Assembly (NCBI GenBank): GCA_947647735.1
Contig: CANSLJ010000012.1
Coordinates: forward strand, 44,721 to 108,720
Length of the DNA stretch: 64,000 nucleotides
Source: an uncultured bacterium
GTDB lineage: Bacteria; Bacillota; Clostridia; Lachnospirales; Lachnospiraceae
Direction: 5' to 3'
Each line of letters begins with the position of its first letter. Within the stretch, counting starts at the first letter, position 1. Below the pieces are notes generated by a model. That model worked only from the letters and a program-made list of their open reading frames with translations, had not been told where the DNA came from and made no database searches. A program made the translations under genes and the position numbers. Below, piece by piece: positions 6,330 through 63,579 of the stretch.

Positions 6330-6935
6330 ATGAGTGAAAATATAAAAGCAGACAACAGGACAATGGGAAATATGCTGGCGAAGGGGATCCGGGTACTGAC
6401 AGTGCCGCCGATCCTGATCACTGGTATGCTGATCACATTGACGGTTTCACTGGATAATTTCTGCAGCAGTACGGCGCAGATGACGCTGGCGATCATACTT
6501 TTGGGGCTCGTGCCGATCCTGGCGTATCCGCTTCAGAAGCTTCTGCCGTCCAAAGGGGAAGTGCGGGAGGAGCAGCGCAATATGGCATTTATCCTTACCT
6601 TTACGGGATATCTGACCGCACTGATCTTTTCCATAGCCGGGAATTGCGGCAGACAGCTTCAATATATCATTGTTTCCTATTTTATTTCCATGTCGCTGCT
6701 GGTGTTTTTCAATAAGGTGCTGCATGTGCGGGCAAGCGGGCATGCCTGCAGCGTGACAGGGACGTTGTATTTTCTGTCATTCTTTCTGGGCGCGGATGCG
6801 ATCATTCCCTGTATCTGTATTGCGATAGCGGTCGTGTGGTCTTCCCTGCACCTGAAACGGCATACGATACAGGAGATATTCTGGGGCTCGGCGGTGTGCC
6901 TTCCGTGTATACTGGCATCGATATTTATCCTATAG
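6330..6935 (+). CDS. PAP2-superfamily-like integral membrane protein
   Basis: A 201-residue membrane protein with about five hydrophobic segments. The region NKVLHVRASGHACSVTG and the later SSLHLKRHTIQEIFWGSA resemble the SGH and SR-x5-H motifs of type 2 phosphatidic-acid phosphatases, keeping the two histidines but with a weakened first motif. It may dephosphorylate a lipid phosphate (undecaprenyl pyrophosphate recycling or phosphatidate), or be a diverged non-catalytic relative. Start 6330 follows AGGAGGTAGAGAT. It ends at a terminator shared with the convergent DtxR gene. Confidence 0.6.
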   Translation: MSENIKADNRTMGNMLAKGIRVLTVPPILITGMLITLTVSLDNFCSSTAQMTLAIILLGLVPILAYPLQKLLPSKGEVREEQRNMAFILTFTGYLTALIFSIAGNCGRQLQYIIVSYFISMSLLVFFNKVLHVRASGHACSVTGTLYFLSFFLGADAIIPCICIAIAVVWSSLHLKRHTIQEIFWGSAVCLPCILASIFIL

Positions 6936-7356: not shown

Positions 7357-7567
7357 AACATCATTCCAATCCTGCTGTATTTCTCATATCGTATCCATAC
7401 AGCGTTTTTGCAGGCTGTGCCCTTTATGACGCCCTGCCGTATTGCCAATAAGTATAGCATAATTTTTCCCATGTGACAAATAGAACAAGTGTTGTTTTTG
7501 AAGCTGTTTCAGTGGCTTTTGTGAAAATCTGATAAAATTTCCATGAATTTTTTTATCTATTTTGGTA

Positions 7568-7931: not shown

Positions 7932-8153
7932 ATGAAAACATTACGGGAGATTGCCTGTGACCAGACAGTAAAGGTGGTAAAGCTGCATGGTGACGGCGCG
8001 ATCAAAAGAAGGATCATGGATATGGGCATCACAAAAGGGGTGCAGGTATATGTCCGCAAGGTGGCGCCGCTGGGCGATCCGGTGGAAGTGACGGTGAGAG
8101 GGTATGAACTTTCGCTGAGGAAAGCGGATGCGGAGATGATAGAGGTAGAGTAA
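7932..8153 (+). CDS. feoA: FeoA-domain protein (second of two)
   Basis: A 73-residue FeoA paralogue (IKRRIMDMGITKGVQVYVRKVAPLGDPVEVTVRGYELSLRKADAEMIEVE). The RRIMDMGI...G.PVEV..RGYELSLR core is the classic FeoA signature, closer to the family consensus than the first copy. It starts 41 bases after the first feoA and precedes feoB by 49 bases. It likely binds the cytoplasmic face of FeoB and modulates GTPase-coupled transport. Confidence 0.9.
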   Translation: MKTLREIACDQTVKVVKLHGDGAIKRRIMDMGITKGVQVYVRKVAPLGDPVEVTVRGYELSLRKADAEMIEVE

Positions 8154-56667: not shown

Positions 56668-57513
56668 ATGAAGAATCGTGTGATGACGATGGAAAGACAG
56701 GAGGAATTTGCAGAGTACTTGAAAAGGGAAGAGTACGAGAATGCAACGGTGGAAAAGTACCTGCGGGAAGTGCAAAAGTTTCAGCAATGGATGGGCAGCA
56801 GAGGTGTGGATAAGGAAGCTGTCACAGAATTTAAGCGGCATTTGCAGGAGAAGGGGTATGCACCATCTACGGTAAACGGCAAGCTTTCGGCACTGAATAT
56901 GTTTTTTAGATTTGCCGGGTGGGAGGATTGCCGGGTGAAATTTCTGCGCATCCAACGGCAGATATTCCGAAACAGTACAAAAGAACTAAGTCGGGAAGAA
57001 TACAGTAGATTACTGAAAACAGCAAAAGAAAAAGGAAATGAGAGACTTGCACTGCTGATGGAGACGATATGTGGGACAGGAATCCGTGTCAGCGAGGTTC
57101 CCTGTATTACGGTAGAAGCATTGAAAGCGGGAAAGACAGAGGTCAGTTTAAAGGGAAAAGTGCGTGTTGTCTTTCTGTCGGGGAAGCTGTGTCGTAAGCT
57201 GCTGAAATATGCGAAAAAACAGGAGATTTCTGCCGGAGAGATATTTCTGACGGGAAGTGGAAGAAGGTTATCGAGAAGGCAGATCTGGAGAGAGATGAAG
57301 GGATTATGTGATAGTGCGGGGGTGGAAGCGGAAAAAGTTTTTCCACATAATCTCCGCCATTTATTTGCGACAGCTTTTTATAAGGTTAGCAAGGATATTG
57401 TAAAACTGGCGGATGTATTGGGACACAGTTCTGTTGAGACAACTAGAATTTATCTAAAAACGGCTGGGGAAGAGCATATACGGTATCTGAATAGAATGGG
57501 CTTGGTGGTGTAG
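56668..57513 (+). CDS. Tyrosine recombinase (XerC/D-like) adjacent to invertible segment
   Basis: A 281-residue tyrosine recombinase. The N-terminal SAM-like core-binding domain (EYENATVEKYLREVQKFQQWM) precedes the catalytic domain with Arg140 (GTGIRVSE), Lys in SLKGKVRVV, His-x2-Arg in HNLRH, His in LGHSS and nucleophile Tyr262 in RIYLKT. All six residues are present. Its stop (57513) is one base before the left 23-bp inverted repeat of the segment at 57515-57771. It is very likely the invertase for that switch. Start 56668; ATG at 56686 is an alternative. Confidence 0.92.
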   Translation: MKNRVMTMERQEEFAEYLKREEYENATVEKYLREVQKFQQWMGSRGVDKEAVTEFKRHLQEKGYAPSTVNGKLSALNMFFRFAGWEDCRVKFLRIQRQIFRNSTKELSREEYSRLLKTAKEKGNERLALLMETICGTGIRVSEVPCITVEALKAGKTEVSLKGKVRVVFLSGKLCRKLLKYAKKQEISAGEIFLTGSGRRLSRRQIWREMKGLCDSAGVEAEKVFPHNLRHLFATAFYKVSKDIVKLADVLGHSSVETTRIYLKTAGEEHIRYLNRMGLVV

Positions 57514-57514
57514 G

Positions 57515-57537
57515 CAGATTTTACATTCTGACTACAA
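57515..57537 (+). repeat. Left inverted repeat of the invertible segment
   Basis: A 23-bp sequence starting CAGATTTTACATTC whose exact reverse complement is at 57749-57771. It begins right after the recombinase stop codon. It is the likely recognition and crossover site of the tyrosine recombinase. Confidence 0.93.
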
Positions 57538-57748
57538 AGATAGTATAAATATTCAAATTCGGTAAAATTATATCACAGTTAAATAAGCATTTGCAAGATA
57601 AAATTTGCATTTTAGAGCATGAAAATTAGAGCCGGGTAAAAATTTTTCGCCCGGTTCTGATTGATTGTGCTCTGAAACAAGTCTGGCAAAAACCGCCGAC
57701 AGGAAATGTTTTATTTTCATTTAAAAAGGCAATCTATTTCGTGGCTGA
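57538..57748. other. Invertible promoter segment (OFF orientation as sequenced)
   Basis: 211 bp between perfect 23-bp inverted repeats. It is A/T-rich and noncoding. On the - strand it holds TTGCAA-18-TATAAT (57567-57596), facing left. It also has a hairpin (AGAGCCGGG / CCCGGTTCT, 57628-57658) that may insulate. No comparable + strand promoter is seen. Inversion would place the promoter in front of the regulator at 57823. Confidence 0.8.
57567..57596 (-). promoter_or_regulatory. Promoter inside the invertible segment
   Basis: Read on the - strand: TTGCAA (57591-57596), 18 bases, TATAAT (57567-57572). In this orientation the transcript runs leftward across the recombinase gene as antisense RNA. 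After inversion it would run to the BTAD regulator. Confidence 0.7.
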
Positions 57749-57771
57749 TTGTAGTCAGAATGTAAAATCTG
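57749..57771 (-). repeat. Right inverted repeat of the invertible segment
   Basis: Exact reverse complement of 57515-57537 (starts TTGTAGTCAGAATG). It ends 51 bases before the start of the regulator gene. Confidence 0.93.
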
Positions 57772-57822
57772 TATACAGATTACGACAAAAAATGAAACAT
57801 TACTTAACGGAGGGATGAGATC

Positions 57823-59073
57823 ATGTCAGAAAAAGTATTACAGATCCAAATGTTTGGCGGTTTTGTCATGCGTTATAACAATGAGGTTGTTGTGATGAAC
57901 AAGGCGGGAAGTTCAAAATCAGTAAGGCTTCTTCAGATGCTTCTATTATCTATGCCGGAAGGAGTATCCAAGGGAGAGATTATGGATAATCTGTACGGTT
58001 GGAATGAGAAGGCAGATACTGCGAACCGTAATAAGAATCTGAATAATCTGATCTATCGATTAAAGGGGCAGTTGGCGGCAGGAGGACTTCCAGAAAAGGA
58101 TTATGTGGAAATTCGGGATGGTATGTGTTTTTTTAAGAGTGAGATTCCACTGAAAATGGATATTCTGGAATTTGAGGAACTTGTAGAGAAAGCGAAAAGT
58201 GCAAAAGGAGCAGAGAGAAAAGAACTTCTCTGGAAAGCAAATGAGATATATTGTGGGGAACTGTTACCGGCTAATCAGTCAGAAATGTGGTTTTTCCAGA
58301 GGAGCAGATATTATAAGGAACTTTATACCTGGTCTGTAGGGGAATTGGAGAAAGAGCTTCAAAAAAGCAGAGATTATAAAAACAGACTGTTGCTTTACGC
58401 AAGAGCTGCGAATATATATCCGTTTGATAACTGGCAGATGCGGCAGATGCGTTGTAATCTGGAACTGTATCGCTATGATGAGGCACTGAATATATATAAT
58501 GAAACAATGGAATTGTATGCCCGAGAGATGGGTGGGACAGCGCCAGCGGAGGAGATGCAGGAGTGTTTTGAGACACTGAGATTGATGGATGATAATCATA
58601 ACAGGAATGTGGATGATATAGATGGCTGGCGAAATATGGATAGAGTATTCATAGGAAGAAAGGATGCCATTTTAGAGGCACTTGTATCAGAGGATAATAT
58701 AAAGAGCGCCTATTATTGTACATATCCGAGTTTTGTGGATTATTGTCATTTGGTCGTAAGGGCTAAGGACAGGAATGACTTTACGGCAATACTAATGTTT
58801 CTTACCCTGAGTCAGAAAAAGACGCAGAGATCTATGGATCTCCAGGAGCAGATGGAACTGTTAAAGGAAGTGCTGGGGGACAGTCTGAGAATAGGGGATG
58901 CCTATACCAGATATGGGAACAGACATTTTATCCTGATGCTGGTGAACACAGAAATGGAATTTTGCAGTACCATTTTCCGGAGGATCGAGACAGCATATAA
59001 GAAAAGGGCTGGAAAGGGAGATTTGTGGTATTATGCGGATATGACGCAGGAGATTGAGGAAGCGGTGATTTAA
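57823..59073 (+). CDS. BTAD/SARP-like transcriptional regulator
   Basis: A 416-residue regulator. Residues 1-95 form an OmpR-like winged helix (LQIQMFGGFVMRYNN, KSVRLLQMLLLSMPEGVSKGEIMDNLYGWNEKADTANRNKNLNNLIYRLK). A BTAD-type helical repeat domain follows (LLWKANEIYCGELLPANQSEMW, LLLYARAANIYPFDNWQMRQMRCNLELYRYDEAL). The last 130 residues form an unassigned domain. Such proteins activate transcription from direct repeats. Ribosome site GGAGGGATGAGATC. The only promoter seen upstream lies inside the invertible segment, so it is probably phase-variable. Tandem palindromes at 59088-59153 lie just after it. Confidence 0.85.
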   Translation: MSEKVLQIQMFGGFVMRYNNEVVVMNKAGSSKSVRLLQMLLLSMPEGVSKGEIMDNLYGWNEKADTANRNKNLNNLIYRLKGQLAAGGLPEKDYVEIRDGMCFFKSEIPLKMDILEFEELVEKAKSAKGAERKELLWKANEIYCGELLPANQSEMWFFQRSRYYKELYTWSVGELEKELQKSRDYKNRLLLYARAANIYPFDNWQMRQMRCNLELYRYDEALNIYNETMELYAREMGGTAPAEEMQECFETLRLMDDNHNRNVDDIDGWRNMDRVFIGRKDAILEALVSEDNIKSAYYCTYPSFVDYCHLVVRAKDRNDFTAILMFLTLSQKKTQRSMDLQEQMELLKEVLGDSLRIGDAYTRYGNRHFILMLVNTEMEFCSTIFRRIETAYKKRAGKGDLWYYADMTQEIEEAVI

Positions 59074-59087
59074 GGGAATTAAGGACT

Positions 59088-59153
59088 GATGTATATGTCA
59101 TATGAAATATTGGTAGTGACATATATGTCAGATAAGATAGTGACATATATGTC
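59088..59153. repeat. Tandem 12-bp palindromes, likely operator array
   Basis: Two perfect copies of GACATATATGTC (59118-59129, 59142-59153) and one imperfect copy (59088-59099) spaced 30 and 24 bp. They lie after the BTAD regulator and upstream of the surface protein gene, separated from it by a terminator. A role as binding site for the regulator is plausible. Confidence 0.7.
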
Positions 59154-59172
59154 ATGTACAGATAAAGAAATG

Positions 59173-59217: not shown

Positions 59218-59439
59218 TTTACAGATTATGTATTAGGACGCCCGGAAGGTACAAAGTATGTTCCGGGTAAAATTTTGCCTGAAAATGAAAAAGAAAGTTG
59301 TTCGATATAAAATGAGGCAGTTTGCGAGATACCCCCTTTGATACGATTATTTCAAGATAGAAATATCTACGCTGAAGCATTCTCGGCAGTCCGGTGTGCT
59401 GGAGAACGCTTGGAACTATCAAAGGAAAGGAGTGATATG

Positions 59440-62400
59440 ATGAAGTTCAAAAGATGGAAGAAAATGATTGTTATGCTGATGATAGCGACCATGTTCCTCC
59501 AGAGCGTGGTTGTGTACGCCGATGATATTGTACCGGAAGAACCGAAAACAGAGGACGTACAGGACACTGCGGATGATGCCGCAGATAAGCAGGATGCGCC
59601 GGATGATGACAAGGAAAGCAATCCGGAAGCGGGATCGCCGGAGACCTCGGATGAGGGAGAAAATATACCGGCGGTGGACGGAAGTACCGGCGGCGAAGAA
59701 AAGCCGAAGGTAGAGACAGACACAGGGGGTTCCACAGAAGGTGAAACCAATGAAAACGGGGAAGAAACAAATAATCCGGATGAGATCGTAGATAACCTGG
59801 AAGAGGTTGAAGGTGAGATCATTGAGGAGGAAATCCCCGAGGAGGAAGTACCGGAGGAAATCCCTGAGGAAGTACCAGAAGAGGTTCAGGCATTTCTGGA
59901 TGCAGTAGCAGCCCTTCCCTCTGTGGAGGAAGTTACTGTGGAAAACGCAGAGGAGATCGGCGTACAGGTGAACGCCGTGATCGATATGTGGGAGGATCTG
60001 AACGTAGAGTTCTACGAGCGCGAAGATGTGCAGGCGGCTATGGAAGTAGTCCATGAGTTGTTTGAGGCGGTTCTGGCGGCGGAAGAGATTGAGAAGCCGG
60101 AAGTGTATGCGATGGGAACAGTTGAGAAGAGTTCAATCGCAAATGAGTTTCATCAGTTTCCATGGGGTAATGACTTTTCTTACGATGGCTATAATTACTA
60201 TTGTCAAGCAACAAAAGGTAAAGTTACTATCACTGATGAAGAGGGCGTTTATGATTTCGGGGTGCCCGCTATTTTTCCGAATCATAGCGGCTGGACGAAA
60301 CCCAATCCGGGAACTTTTTATAATCCTATTGTATCTGGTGCAGGCGGCATAGTAAATGTGACGGTAGAAAATTCCGGGGATGGATTGAGGATAAACTTTA
60401 AGCCCGGCAGTAAAACCGGAACAACGACCGTAAAAGTATCGATATCTTTTTATTACACAACAACAGGTATTTATACTGAAACAGTACCAGGTAACCTTTA
60501 CTTTTGGTATACGGTTACCAATAAATATGGCGGGGATACCAAGCCTGTTGAAAAACCTGAAAAACCTACAGATGCAGAGGTACAAGATTTCTATGATGGA
60601 AATAATATAGCTATTATTGTCAGATGCGTGGATAATAAAGGACATAATGGCAGCCTGAAACGGCTTGCAAAAGGTTCCTATACCATCGGTGAGGTTGAAG
60701 CTTATGACGGCAGCAATGAGGAGCTGTCAGAAGACGAATGGTCTTGGATGTGCAAGGTTCATGTGGACCAGAAATACTATTTGGATATGTGGCATACAAA
60801 CTTTCAGAGTAAATGGGGTACACATTATCTGACAGATAAGGATGCGGATGTTTATGCACCATTTTATTACTTTAATGGTGGATATTGCAGTTATGCAGAT
60901 GATGATTTGCCGGAAGGCTGGTATTGTCTGACGGAAGACGCACCGGTTTATGTGGATATTACACATAAGACACCGGTTCAACCGATAAAGGAGTATACGG
61001 TTACTTATACGGATGGGGTACCTGGTACAGTAGTATTTCCTGATCAGAGTTATGAGGAATTAAAAGAAGGCGCTCAAACTCCGAAATTTGTTGGAACACC
61101 TGAGCGTGAGGGATATACGTTTGCAGGTTGGAAGCTTACCAGTGTAAAGCCTAATAAAGATGGCGTACAGGATACCGTGAAAGCAGAGGATGCTAATAGT
61201 GAGAACGAAATCATCTATACTGCGATATGGGAGAAAGTAAAGAAAAATTTAACGGACATACAGAAGGAAATTGTTGCTGAAAAGGATGTGCCTGATCCGG
61301 TAAAAGAAAGTCTTGGACAGAAGAATCTCACAATCAGTTACCCTGATCTTGGTGGAAAGGTTAAGATTCCAAGCGGTAGCGAAGGCGTTACACTTCTTTA
61401 TAAGATTACAGTAACCGGCGATGAAGGGGCTGCTTATAAAGTAACTGATGATGGTGCGACCAGAGTAGGCGGCGATGGAACACAGACAGGAAAGGGTGCT
61501 CCTATCACAGGAACGATCGACAGTACAAAGAAGGCAGAGATTTATGTTGTGAAGACTTTTACTGCTGAGAATATTAATCAGGATGGAGAAGTTGTAAACA
61601 ACGCAGTTCTTGAAAGCGGTAATTCTGAGACAACAGATCCGATTGACAAGGAAGACTCGGAAAAGACACCTGTAGAAGAGGAAATTCCCAAGCCCGTCAA
61701 AGATAAGCTGGGATTAGAGGTTATCGTGGATTGTGTCAATACAACGATCGATCCGCTCCACAAAGATAAGACATATGATGTGCAGGACGGCAGTGTGACA
61801 GTCGGTGAAATCACCAAATCAGGTGATGAATATACCTGCGAAGTGACTGTCCTTGCAGATGAGTATGTGAAGAAATATACAGAGGAGATGAAGGAAGCAC
61901 ATGTACTTGTTGATCCCTCTAAAGGAACTGCCAAACTGACGCTGAAATGGAATGAGGATGATCAGAAATGGGAAGCAGAAAAGAAGCAAGTAACCTTTAA
62001 GGTTCGCTGCGGTAAACCTTCTGCCAATGTAAACATCATTCGCAATTACAGCTATGAATTAGTAGATGAAAACCCCGTGAAAGAATCAAAACGGGAAAAG
62101 GGTACAACGCCTGTAGAAATCAAAGAGGGCAAAGTAACCGTAAATGCAGATGCATACAAGGTTTATGACGGCATGGAAGGGATTGACGCGAAAGAGTATG
62201 AACTCAAGTCGGTAACCGTGAAAAAAGGCAGCGAAGTAATTACGGATGTTGTTCCGGATTCCGGGAAACCACTCAGCTTTGCGGCAGAGGCAGATGGCCT
62301 GTATGAAGTGACACTCAACTATGAGCTGGTTGAAACGGCAAAGAAAACAGTTACCGTTATTTATGTGGATGAAGACGGCAGAGAACTGGGGAGAGTAGAT

Positions 62401-63579
62401 GATATTCCGAAAGTGAATTATAAAGATCCCTATGATGTCAGCGACAAAGTGACGGAAACTTATACAGATGAAGACGGAAACAACTATATTGTCCTTGGCG
62501 TAGATGAGGATGGCGATCCCGAAGAGGGAACAGCAGATAAAGACATCGTAGTAACGATCATCTGCACGCTGGATAATATCGGTCCTGAGGGTCCGGATAA
62601 GATTCCCGACAAGTATCAGGTTATTGTAACCTATGAAGCAGTGAACGGGACGATAAACGGTTCCAAGAGGGAGATTGTAAGCCTGAAAAAAACGGATGAG
62701 AATGGGAAGGAAGAATACGCAACAGCGGAGGACGGCGGAAAAGGCTATCTGACAGCAGGGCAGATCCCTGGTACTTCTGCAAATGAGGGATATGGAAACG
62801 GAGTCTGGGCTCCGGCAGAGCCGACCGTTACCTATGAGATTACAAAGAATACAGATTTTGTGATCACATATTCACGGAATACGCAGCCTACGCCTCCCGG
62901 TGGCGGTGGAAATAATGACGACGATGACGATGACGACGACGATGATCCAGACCCGACGCCCACACCGACATCAGACCCGACACCACCTGTACCGCCCACA
63001 CCGATCCTGCCCGGGCCTACAGTGACACCTACGCCTGTACCGCCCACACCGACGGTAACAAACGTGACACCTGTACCGCCCACACCTACGGCAGCGCTGG
63101 CGACAGCAGATCCCGAAGTGGCACAACTCCTGGATGAGATCGTACCGCTGGCCGGCGGGGAGGAAGCAGACGGTGAGGCTGAACCGGAACCGGTGGAACT
63201 GGATGAGGAAGGCGTGCCGAAAGCAGGCAAGGGCCTTAGCTGGGCACTGGTGAACTTCGCACTGATGAATCTGGCAGTCTTTGAATCCCTGATGCTTCTG
63301 GTCGGATATTTTGTGAAGACGAAGAACTCATCTGAGGAAGAGGACGAAGAAGAGAAGAAGAAGTTAAAGAAAAAAGGTATTATGCGTATCATCAGCCTGC
63401 CGGTAGCGATCATCTCTATCATCGCATTCTGCCTGACAGAAGATATCACGCTTCCGACCGCATTCGTAGACCGTTATACACTCCTGATGGCGATCATCGC
63501 GCTTGTACAGACAGCAGTAGTAGCACTGTCCCGCAAGGAGTTGGAAGACGAAGAGGAAGAAGTTAAGGTTGAAGCATAA
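59440..63579 (+). CDS. Large repetitive surface protein with membrane-anchored C-terminus
   Basis: A 1379-residue extracellular protein. A signal peptide (MIVMLMIATMFLQSVVVYA) is followed by an acidic Glu/Asp/Pro linker (about 30-160), a helical segment, unassigned beta domains, a flg_new/InlB-type B repeat (PGTVVFPDQSYEELKEGAQ... GYTFAGW), DUF11-like and MucBP-like beta units (VTVIYVDEDGRELG), a poly-Asp run and a Pro/Thr wall-spanning stretch (TPTPTSDPTPPVPPTP). The end has no LPxTG; instead it has three or so hydrophobic helices and charged loops. It may be an adhesin. Start 59440 lies after AAAGGAGTGATATG; 59437 is also possible. Confidence 0.88.
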   Translation: MKFKRWKKMIVMLMIATMFLQSVVVYADDIVPEEPKTEDVQDTADDAADKQDAPDDDKESNPEAGSPETSDEGENIPAVDGSTGGEEKPKVETDTGGSTEGETNENGEETNNPDEIVDNLEEVEGEIIEEEIPEEEVPEEIPEEVPEEVQAFLDAVAALPSVEEVTVENAEEIGVQVNAVIDMWEDLNVEFYEREDVQAAMEVVHELFEAVLAAEEIEKPEVYAMGTVEKSSIANEFHQFPWGNDFSYDGYNYYCQATKGKVTITDEEGVYDFGVPAIFPNHSGWTKPNPGTFYNPIVSGAGGIVNVTVENSGDGLRINFKPGSKTGTTTVKVSISFYYTTTGIYTETVPGNLYFWYTVTNKYGGDTKPVEKPEKPTDAEVQDFYDGNNIAIIVRCVDNKGHNGSLKRLAKGSYTIGEVEAYDGSNEELSEDEWSWMCKVHVDQKYYLDMWHTNFQSKWGTHYLTDKDADVYAPFYYFNGGYCSYADDDLPEGWYCLTEDAPVYVDITHKTPVQPIKEYTVTYTDGVPGTVVFPDQSYEELKEGAQTPKFVGTPEREGYTFAGWKLTSVKPNKDGVQDTVKAEDANSENEIIYTAIWEKVKKNLTDIQKEIVAEKDVPDPVKESLGQKNLTISYPDLGGKVKIPSGSEGVTLLYKITVTGDEGAAYKVTDDGATRVGGDGTQTGKGAPITGTIDSTKKAEIYVVKTFTAENINQDGEVVNNAVLESGNSETTDPIDKEDSEKTPVEEEIPKPVKDKLGLEVIVDCVNTTIDPLHKDKTYDVQDGSVTVGEITKSGDEYTCEVTVLADEYVKKYTEEMKEAHVLVDPSKGTAKLTLKWNEDDQKWEAEKKQVTFKVRCGKPSANVNIIRNYSYELVDENPVKESKREKGTTPVEIKEGKVTVNADAYKVYDGMEGIDAKEYELKSVTVKKGSEVITDVVPDSGKPLSFAAEADGLYEVTLNYELVETAKKTVTVIYVDEDGRELGRVDDIPKVNYKDPYDVSDKVTETYTDEDGNNYIVLGVDEDGDPEEGTADKDIVVTIICTLDNIGPEGPDKIPDKYQVIVTYEAVNGTINGSKREIVSLKKTDENGKEEYATAEDGGKGYLTAGQIPGTSANEGYGNGVWAPAEPTVTYEITKNTDFVITYSRNTQPTPPGGGGNNDDDDDDDDDDPDPTPTPTSDPTPPVPPTPILPGPTVTPTPVPPTPTVTNVTPVPPTPTAALATADPEVAQLLDEIVPLAGGEEADGEAEPEPVELDEEGVPKAGKGLSWALVNFALMNLAVFESLMLLVGYFVKTKNSSEEEDEEEKKKLKKKGIMRIISLPVAIISIIAFCLTEDITLPTAFVDRYTLLMAIIALVQTAVVALSRKELEDEEEEVKVEA

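Follow-up and report, generated by a model that had tools for sequence, protein, structure and literature searches.

This analysis concerns positions 56,668 to 59,073, and the gene that follows them, of a 64,000-nucleotide stretch of DNA (the window) from contig CANSLJ010000012.1 of an uncultured Lachnospiraceae bacterium (GenBank assembly GCA_947647735.1). A tyrosine recombinase gene, a short segment bounded by inverted repeats, a gene for a regulator with a BTAD domain and a gene for a giant surface protein lie there one after another. The segment very likely carries an invertible promoter, assembled in the OFF orientation, that controls the BTAD regulator, the presumed activator of the neighboring surface protein. 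The recombinase would recognize both repeats and reversibly invert the 211-bp segment. In the OFF state the promoter would read leftwards over the recombinase gene, leaving the regulator with no visible promoter, and a hairpin in the segment may block transcripts arriving from the recombinase gene; in the ON state the inverted promoter would face the regulator from about 103 nt upstream of its start (29 bp plus 74 bp from the -10, by arithmetic). The regulator would then activate the surface-protein gene via a 22-bp motif adjoining the -10 of that gene, completing an all-or-none relay from recombinase to promoter orientation, to a dedicated activator and to one surface protein. The features of the locus are the following:

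56668..57513, + strand: tyrosine recombinase, proposed invertase of the adjoining segment (281 aa, reading frame open and complete)
57509..57537, + strand: left inverted repeat (perfect part 57515-57537), overlapping the recombinase stop
57538..57748, no strand: proposed invertible segment (211 bp; same module type seen inverted between sister species)
57567..57596, - strand: promoter TTGCAA-18-TATAAT with extended -10, facing the recombinase (OFF; consensus score only)
57610..57677, + strand: long hairpin in the segment, possible terminator (-37.3 kcal/mol, z -7.5)
57749..57777, + strand: right inverted repeat (perfect part 57749-57771)
57809..57814, + strand: GGAGGG, ribosome-binding-site-like, for the regulator (read from the sequence)
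57823..59073, + strand: BTAD regulator (416 aa, reading frame open and complete; Pfam BTAD 6.5e-6), with a weak winged helix-turn-helix (wHTH) at about residues 30-87, BTAD at 113-252 and a GGDEF-like region lacking the GGDEF motif at about 317-410
59312..59333, + strand: conserved 22-bp motif upstream of the surface gene, candidate operator
59342..59347, + strand: -10-like TACGAT, 8 bp past the motif (spacing identical in relatives)
59440..63579, + strand: giant secreted surface protein, presumed output (1379 aa from this ATG; NCBIfam FILTED 8.2e-30)

Anatomy of the switch and its conservation

The recombinase matched Pfam Phage_integrase (3.3e-25) and a SAM-like N-terminal domain, and its matches to XerA/XerD-like families of NCBIfam fell below the cut-offs. 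The two repeats are perfectly inverted over 23 bp, extend to 29 nt at 93% and leave 211 nt between them; the coordinates given for them in a preliminary description of this DNA were exact, and the complete recombinase gene that it had reported was found intact. The left repeat is itself near-palindromic and in this presumably resembles a Xer-type site. Promoters were called by sigma-70-like consensus scoring only, by which the minus-strand promoter reached 14.4 (shuffled segments: mean 11.3, 95% level 12.8), while candidates on the plus strand did not exceed 10.9 in the segment or in the stretches 57300-57540 and 57740-57822. By this scoring the regulator as assembled is without a visible promoter, and the only promoter seen faces away from it, as had been described; an outside promoter, which the preliminary description had named as one finding that would overturn its reading, did not appear in the two flanking stretches.

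A scan of genome contigs with the regulator yielded 19 loci (L004-L022). Recombinase and repeat precede the regulator in L004, L008, L009 and L012, with repeats of 31, 22, 17 and 25 bp, respectively, and the left repeat of the window is kept in the first three. The interior of the segment has diverged among the window, L004, L008 and L009, yet repeats, promoter and promoter direction are kept, and the direction (OFF) is identical in L012 as well. The hairpin sits between the minus-strand promoter and the regulator, and hairpins of similar strength occur in L009 (z -10.6) and L005 (z -8.1). No second copy or other orientation of the window DNA was found in its own genome (86.6% complete), where it matched only itself and one repeat the other. 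A viral collection scanned with the recombinase held zero relatives, giving no sign of phage carriage there at that sensitivity.

Inversion of the switch type within the genus

Three of the nine genomes of the window's genus carry the recombinase, G003 with three modules and G006 with two. Between the orthologous modules G003:C4 and G006:C4, the recombinase side (763/886 identical) and the downstream side (1696/1962) are both collinear, with flanks 86% identical, while the segment between them aligned only as its reverse complement (181/218 positions; alignment scores of 194 reversed and 21 forward, null maximum 43). The promoters of the two modules face opposite ways. Since the segment aligned only in reverse between collinear flanks, the switch type inverts in the genus of the window; no inversion was observed for the copy in the window, whose orthologues in G003 and G006 have its orientation. 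A second inverted pair of segments was found within one genome (L197/L200), and for all 20 segment pairs scoring at least 70 the alignment matched the orientations called from the promoters, 15 pairs lying the same way and 5 inverted.

The two C4 modules (L231 in G003, L232 in G006) represent a paralogous switch, ON in one species and OFF in the other. The operon behind it encodes a GGDEF protein (Pfam GGDEF 7.8e-32 in L232) and a second BTAD regulator. The window genome also has a GGDEF and BTAD pair (L233, 4190-6351, the GGDEF recognized by eye) with no adjoining recombinase.

A family of recombinase-linked modules

Recombinase homologues (E<=1e-45) were present in 82 of 397 genomes of the family. 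After removal of 5 of the 136 matches that fell short of residue 250 and of 13 with a short tail, the remaining 118 were deduplicated to 79 modules. An inverted repeat of at least 13 bp was found near the recombinase stop in 71 of them, starting from -48 to +78 bp, compared with 0-1 of 79 modules in each of ten shuffled sets; perfect repeats of at least 13 bp were counted in both cases, from a 9-base seed in the shuffles and an 8-base seed in the observed set. The 71 modules have a median gap of 11 bp from stop to repeat, a median repeat of 22 bp and a median segment of 240 bp, and the -10 lies at a median of 41 bp from the repeat among 53 strong promoter calls.

Several variants of the arrangement were noted. 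L005 (2899-3723), L060 and L089 contain two recombinase genes in succession, the second divergent from the first (about 30% identical), and no clear inverted repeat was found in these modules. Elsewhere in the window genome (L056, G000:C4), another integrase is closely followed by two 21-bp inverted repeats with 89 bp between them. In L230 (G003:C88), the same recombinase and switch, in the OFF orientation, stand before a run of genes including PelF (NF038011, 7.5e-115), which is probably a polysaccharide operon. Several modules of the genus (L004, L008, L230, L231 and L232) have a small open reading frame (ORF), about 134-164 aa long, after the switch, which is not found in the window; its copy in L232 had zero Pfam matches.

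The regulator and its presumed target

The preliminary description had called the regulator BTAD/SARP-like. The BTAD domain was confirmed (27.0 bits, cut-off 22.1), and 12 of 12 members of an alignment of relatives matched it at E<=1. The OmpR-type wHTH (Trans_reg_C) at the N terminus scored 18.8 bits, below the cut-off of 26.2, with 9 of the 12 members matching at E<=1. A GGDEF-like C-terminal end was added to the description here. In a search of the PDB, the profile of the 12 relatives matched AfsR over residues 35-251 (0.0015) and diguanylate cyclases over about 317-410 (best 0.0038), and 4 of the 12 members had a GGDEF match at E<=1. The GGDEF signature of diguanylate cyclases is absent from the window regulator in the alignment, GNRHF taking its place in 11 of 12 rows including the window (the exception is the distant L029), so that cyclase activity is not expected. 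SARPs are known as regulators of antibiotic clusters in actinobacteria. The BTAD domain and the profile match to AfsR structures tie the window regulator to AfsR/SARP proteins, and the probable wHTH would be a further likeness, whereas the degenerate GGDEF-like end and the neighboring surface-protein gene set it apart.

The giant surface protein described beside the regulator was borne out by its FILTED domain, listed above. Among the 19 related loci, a large secreted-looking gene follows the regulator in 14 within the stretch examined, cut in four cases by the end of that stretch; none was found in L010, L019 and L021 over the same extent, and L011 and L013 end too early. Within the genus, a long match to the regulator occurs in three of nine genomes.

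In aligned spacers between regulator and surface gene from seven loci, a conserved block, ATGAGRCAGTTYGCRGGATA, was found, the mean column identity being otherwise 37%. A position weight matrix (PWM) was trained on these seven loci, and the 13 other regulator loci were left untrained. The motif scored at least 19.6 in 10 of the 13, while in 609,472 bases of background, about 14% of which repeat an earlier locus, only L088 scored above 17, and this is a second copy of the training locus L005. Where the distance to the regulator is large (1.5 kb in L012, 2.5 kb in L017 and 5.9 kb in L020), the motif is located 148 bp (L012) and 128 bp (L017) upstream of the giant gene, and in L020 a small gene lies between. 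The exact motif, in a pattern widened by one R, was restricted within the genus to three of nine genomes, the same three that have the long regulator match, and a second site was not found in the window's own genome at up to two mismatches. At up to one mismatch, the motif was detected in 6 of the 397 family genomes: three have a close regulator, and in the other three, with no regulator match at E<=1e-30, the motif match falls inside an ORF. At two mismatches the pattern became unspecific (53 of 397 genomes vs. 11 for the reversed pattern). Motif and regulator co-occur, and the regulator may bind there.

AfsR/SARP-type regulators bind direct repeats overlapping the -35. The spacer from regulator to surface gene also holds a trio of near-identical palindromes, TGACATATATGTCA (59087-59154), which were considered as an alternative operator. 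Palindromes like TGACATATATGTCA exceed chance (3 vs. 0.16 expected, with up to 2 mismatches); the 22-bp motif was preferred because exact TGACATATATGTCA is confined to the window's own locus among the 58 loci compared.

Opposing evidence and alternative readings

A number of observations weigh against an active switch that acts on the surface protein through the regulator. At the level of the family, 8 of 79 modules lack a 13-bp repeat: when mismatches were allowed, L210 and L208 showed long imperfect repeats, L099 and L060 reached 13-14, two of the remaining four reached 11, and two stayed below the null maximum of 10. A BTAD gene lies downstream (E<=1e-5) in only 11 of 79 modules. The ON orientation is rare in assemblies, with 52 modules OFF, 7 ON and 10 ambiguous (n=69, two of the 71 segments having been left out for runs of N), or 46 OFF and 7 ON among modules with strong promoters; the modules share ancestry, and hence no exact probability is attached to these counts. 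At the level of the locus, hairpins are weaker in L004 (z -2.8 and -4.9), L008 (-3.5) and L012 (-2.2), and that of the window is absent from the output of a consensus terminator scan, so that termination is something we infer. The motif is missing from the untrained loci L011, L019 and L021 (3 of 13), L010 has the motif with no giant gene after it in the stretch examined, and the regulator copy of G003 is frame-broken.

The strongest of the alternatives, which we consider unlikely, is a switch that is real and frozen in this species, with its recombinase or sites dead and the regulator permanently silent or otherwise driven. It draws on two further adverse observations. The window's own orthologous locus is OFF in all three species compared (window, G003 and G006): the alignment of sister species, where the preliminary description had proposed sister strains, established inversion for the module type (G003:C4/G006:C4) and returned a single orientation at the locus itself; and L005 has a recombinase and, by eye, a promoter, yet no repeat longer than 11 bp. 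The match to the N-terminal part of the regulator only, in two of the nine genus genomes, would fit as well. A frozen site should decay, however, and here the repeat is perfect over 23 bp, the recombinase and regulator ORFs are intact, and the promoter is near consensus.

It is considerably less probable still that leftward transcription is the chief role of the promoter, yielding RNA antisense to the recombinase that dampens inversion, with control of the regulator secondary. The 52 of 69 modules oriented leftwards would accord with this, as would the short median distances from -10 to repeat and from stop to repeat; with a promoter so near the recombinase, leftward transcripts would soon run antisense into it, and such RNA could, hypothetically, stabilize the OFF state. 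On the other hand, the promoter of the ON example L228 points straight into an operon, and in 39 of the 67 repeat-bearing modules with enough sequence downstream the first or second gene after the switch is secreted or membrane-like (by a crude N-terminal rule). That the repeats are a chance or structural feature, for instance part of a terminator as the strong hairpin within the segment might suggest, and not recombination sites, is very improbable given the shuffled sets and the inversion between sister species with collinear flanks, the latter already contradicting it for the module type.

An invertible promoter with its own recombinase, assembled OFF, as first described, is the best-supported reading of the locus, on the strength of an anatomy common to relatives and of inversion in the genus.

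Poly-G tracts in orthologous regulators

Of the 19 orthologous regulators, 10 (L010, L011 and L013-L020) contain 7-10 consecutive G between wHTH and BTAD, always at one codon position (about 7378-7393 of the locus). The gene is in frame in L010, L011 and L019, and out of frame past the tract in the other seven. Homopolymer assembly error could shift the exact tract lengths, hardly the presence of the tract, and two of the out-of-frame genes (L013 and L020) come from named strains. No G run of at least 7 is present in the window regulator, and the tract was found in none of six loci with a recombinase (the window and five others) vs. 10 of the 14 others (0.0054 by counting, ancestry ignored). 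Runs of at least 7 G or C are rare elsewhere: the regulators of these loci contain 11, compared with 2 in 233,648 bases of the loci outside them and 8 in the 609,472 background bases. Among more distant BTAD genes (L164 and those ranked below L021), only L171 has a G run, elsewhere in the gene.

The regulator of L008, a locus of a sister species, is preceded by the inverton and also contains 8 consecutive G (8053-8060) away from the shared tract position, its reading frame being broken near codon 352. A single metagenome-assembled genome (MAG), Roseburia sp. NALB_7963_7, is the source of both L012, which has the inverton, and L019, which has the poly-G tract. In a tree of the regulators, the window, L004, L005 and L008 group together, a larger group adds a poly-G pair from Parablautia and L006/L007, and L009 and L012 are placed apart from these, among poly-G rows; with 15 of its 20 inner forks open, the tree is compatible with differing numbers of gains.

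From these patterns, promoter inversion seems to make the regulator phase-variable in part of the lineages and G-tract slippage seems to do so elsewhere, and the poly-G tracts suggest that its gene is a repeated target of phase variation. We favor, with moderate confidence, the view that the regulator is a dedicated hub of phase variation, that is, a surface-protein activator made switchable more than once, either by inversion (the window's genus, L009 and L012) or by poly-G slippage at a fixed linker codon. With both kinds in one MAG, and with the inverton plus a different G tract in L008, selection would act on the switchability of the regulator and not on one mechanism.

Neither recombinase nor poly-G tract was found in L006, L007, L021 and L022. 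In L022 a perfect 17-bp inverted repeat, 109 bp apart (6743-6885), lies immediately upstream of the regulator with no recombinase alongside, preceded by genes that we take to be ribosomal; it is perhaps a third way of switching, and no convincing promoter was found in its short segment. In L006 (5682-5903) and L007 (5701-5921), inverted repeats of 34-35 bp, 143 bp apart, adjoin 7-8 consecutive G in each case; they precede the regulator by about 1.1 kb, with another ORF between.

Relation to known systems and significance

The preliminary description had stated that invertible promoters with a neighboring recombinase are known in gut bacteria, and these have indeed been published for Clostridia. 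According to parts of the report by Jin et al. (2025, PMC11892184), the invertons of group 139, which go with invertase group 35, come from Clostridia in 32 of 33 cases and nearly all lie near a tyrosine recombinase; orientation changes were measured in reads, e.g., in Clostridium sp. D5, where the printed coordinates leave 205 bp between the repeats. By geometry, the switch in the window is compatible with that group. The term BTAD is absent from the main text of that report, whereas the target in the window is a BTAD regulator.

Comparable outcomes are known from other systems, as given in portions of the respective papers. In the cmr switch of Clostridioides difficile, an inverted segment whose promoter is in the ON orientation drives regulators and hence colony and surface behavior (Garrett et al. 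2022, PMC8844915); it acts on CmrRST (a kinase with two response regulators), which a cyclic di-GMP riboswitch controls as well, whereas the window has a BTAD regulator with a recombinase alongside and, as proposed, one surface gene. The large surface protein CwpV of C. difficile is phase-variable through a genetic switch that acts on cwpV expression itself (PMC2784873), while the window interposes a regulator. In the pili of Bifidobacterium, slippage at an intragenic G-tract turns a surface structure ON or OFF in a gut commensal (Penno et al. 2022, PMC9187656); there the tract belongs to pilus clusters, whereas here other species carry it in their orthologous regulators and the window's regulator lacks it.

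Control of a SARP-type activator beside a giant surface protein had been considered little described, and a limited search of open-licence literature (titles and the start of abstracts) found neither this target nor a convergence of inversion and G-tract slippage on one gene; poly-G tracts in BTAD genes were not part of the search. As recombinase-linked invertons have already been published, the mechanism is known, and novelty lies in the target, along with its dedicated motif and the alternative, poly-G switch of that gene.

If the proposed relay is correct, a little-studied class of gut surface proteins would be under all-or-none control via one activator. A single orthologous gene reached by two unrelated switching mechanisms would be a clean natural example of convergent phase variation, in which selection would favor heterogeneity in the regulator and not in the adhesin.

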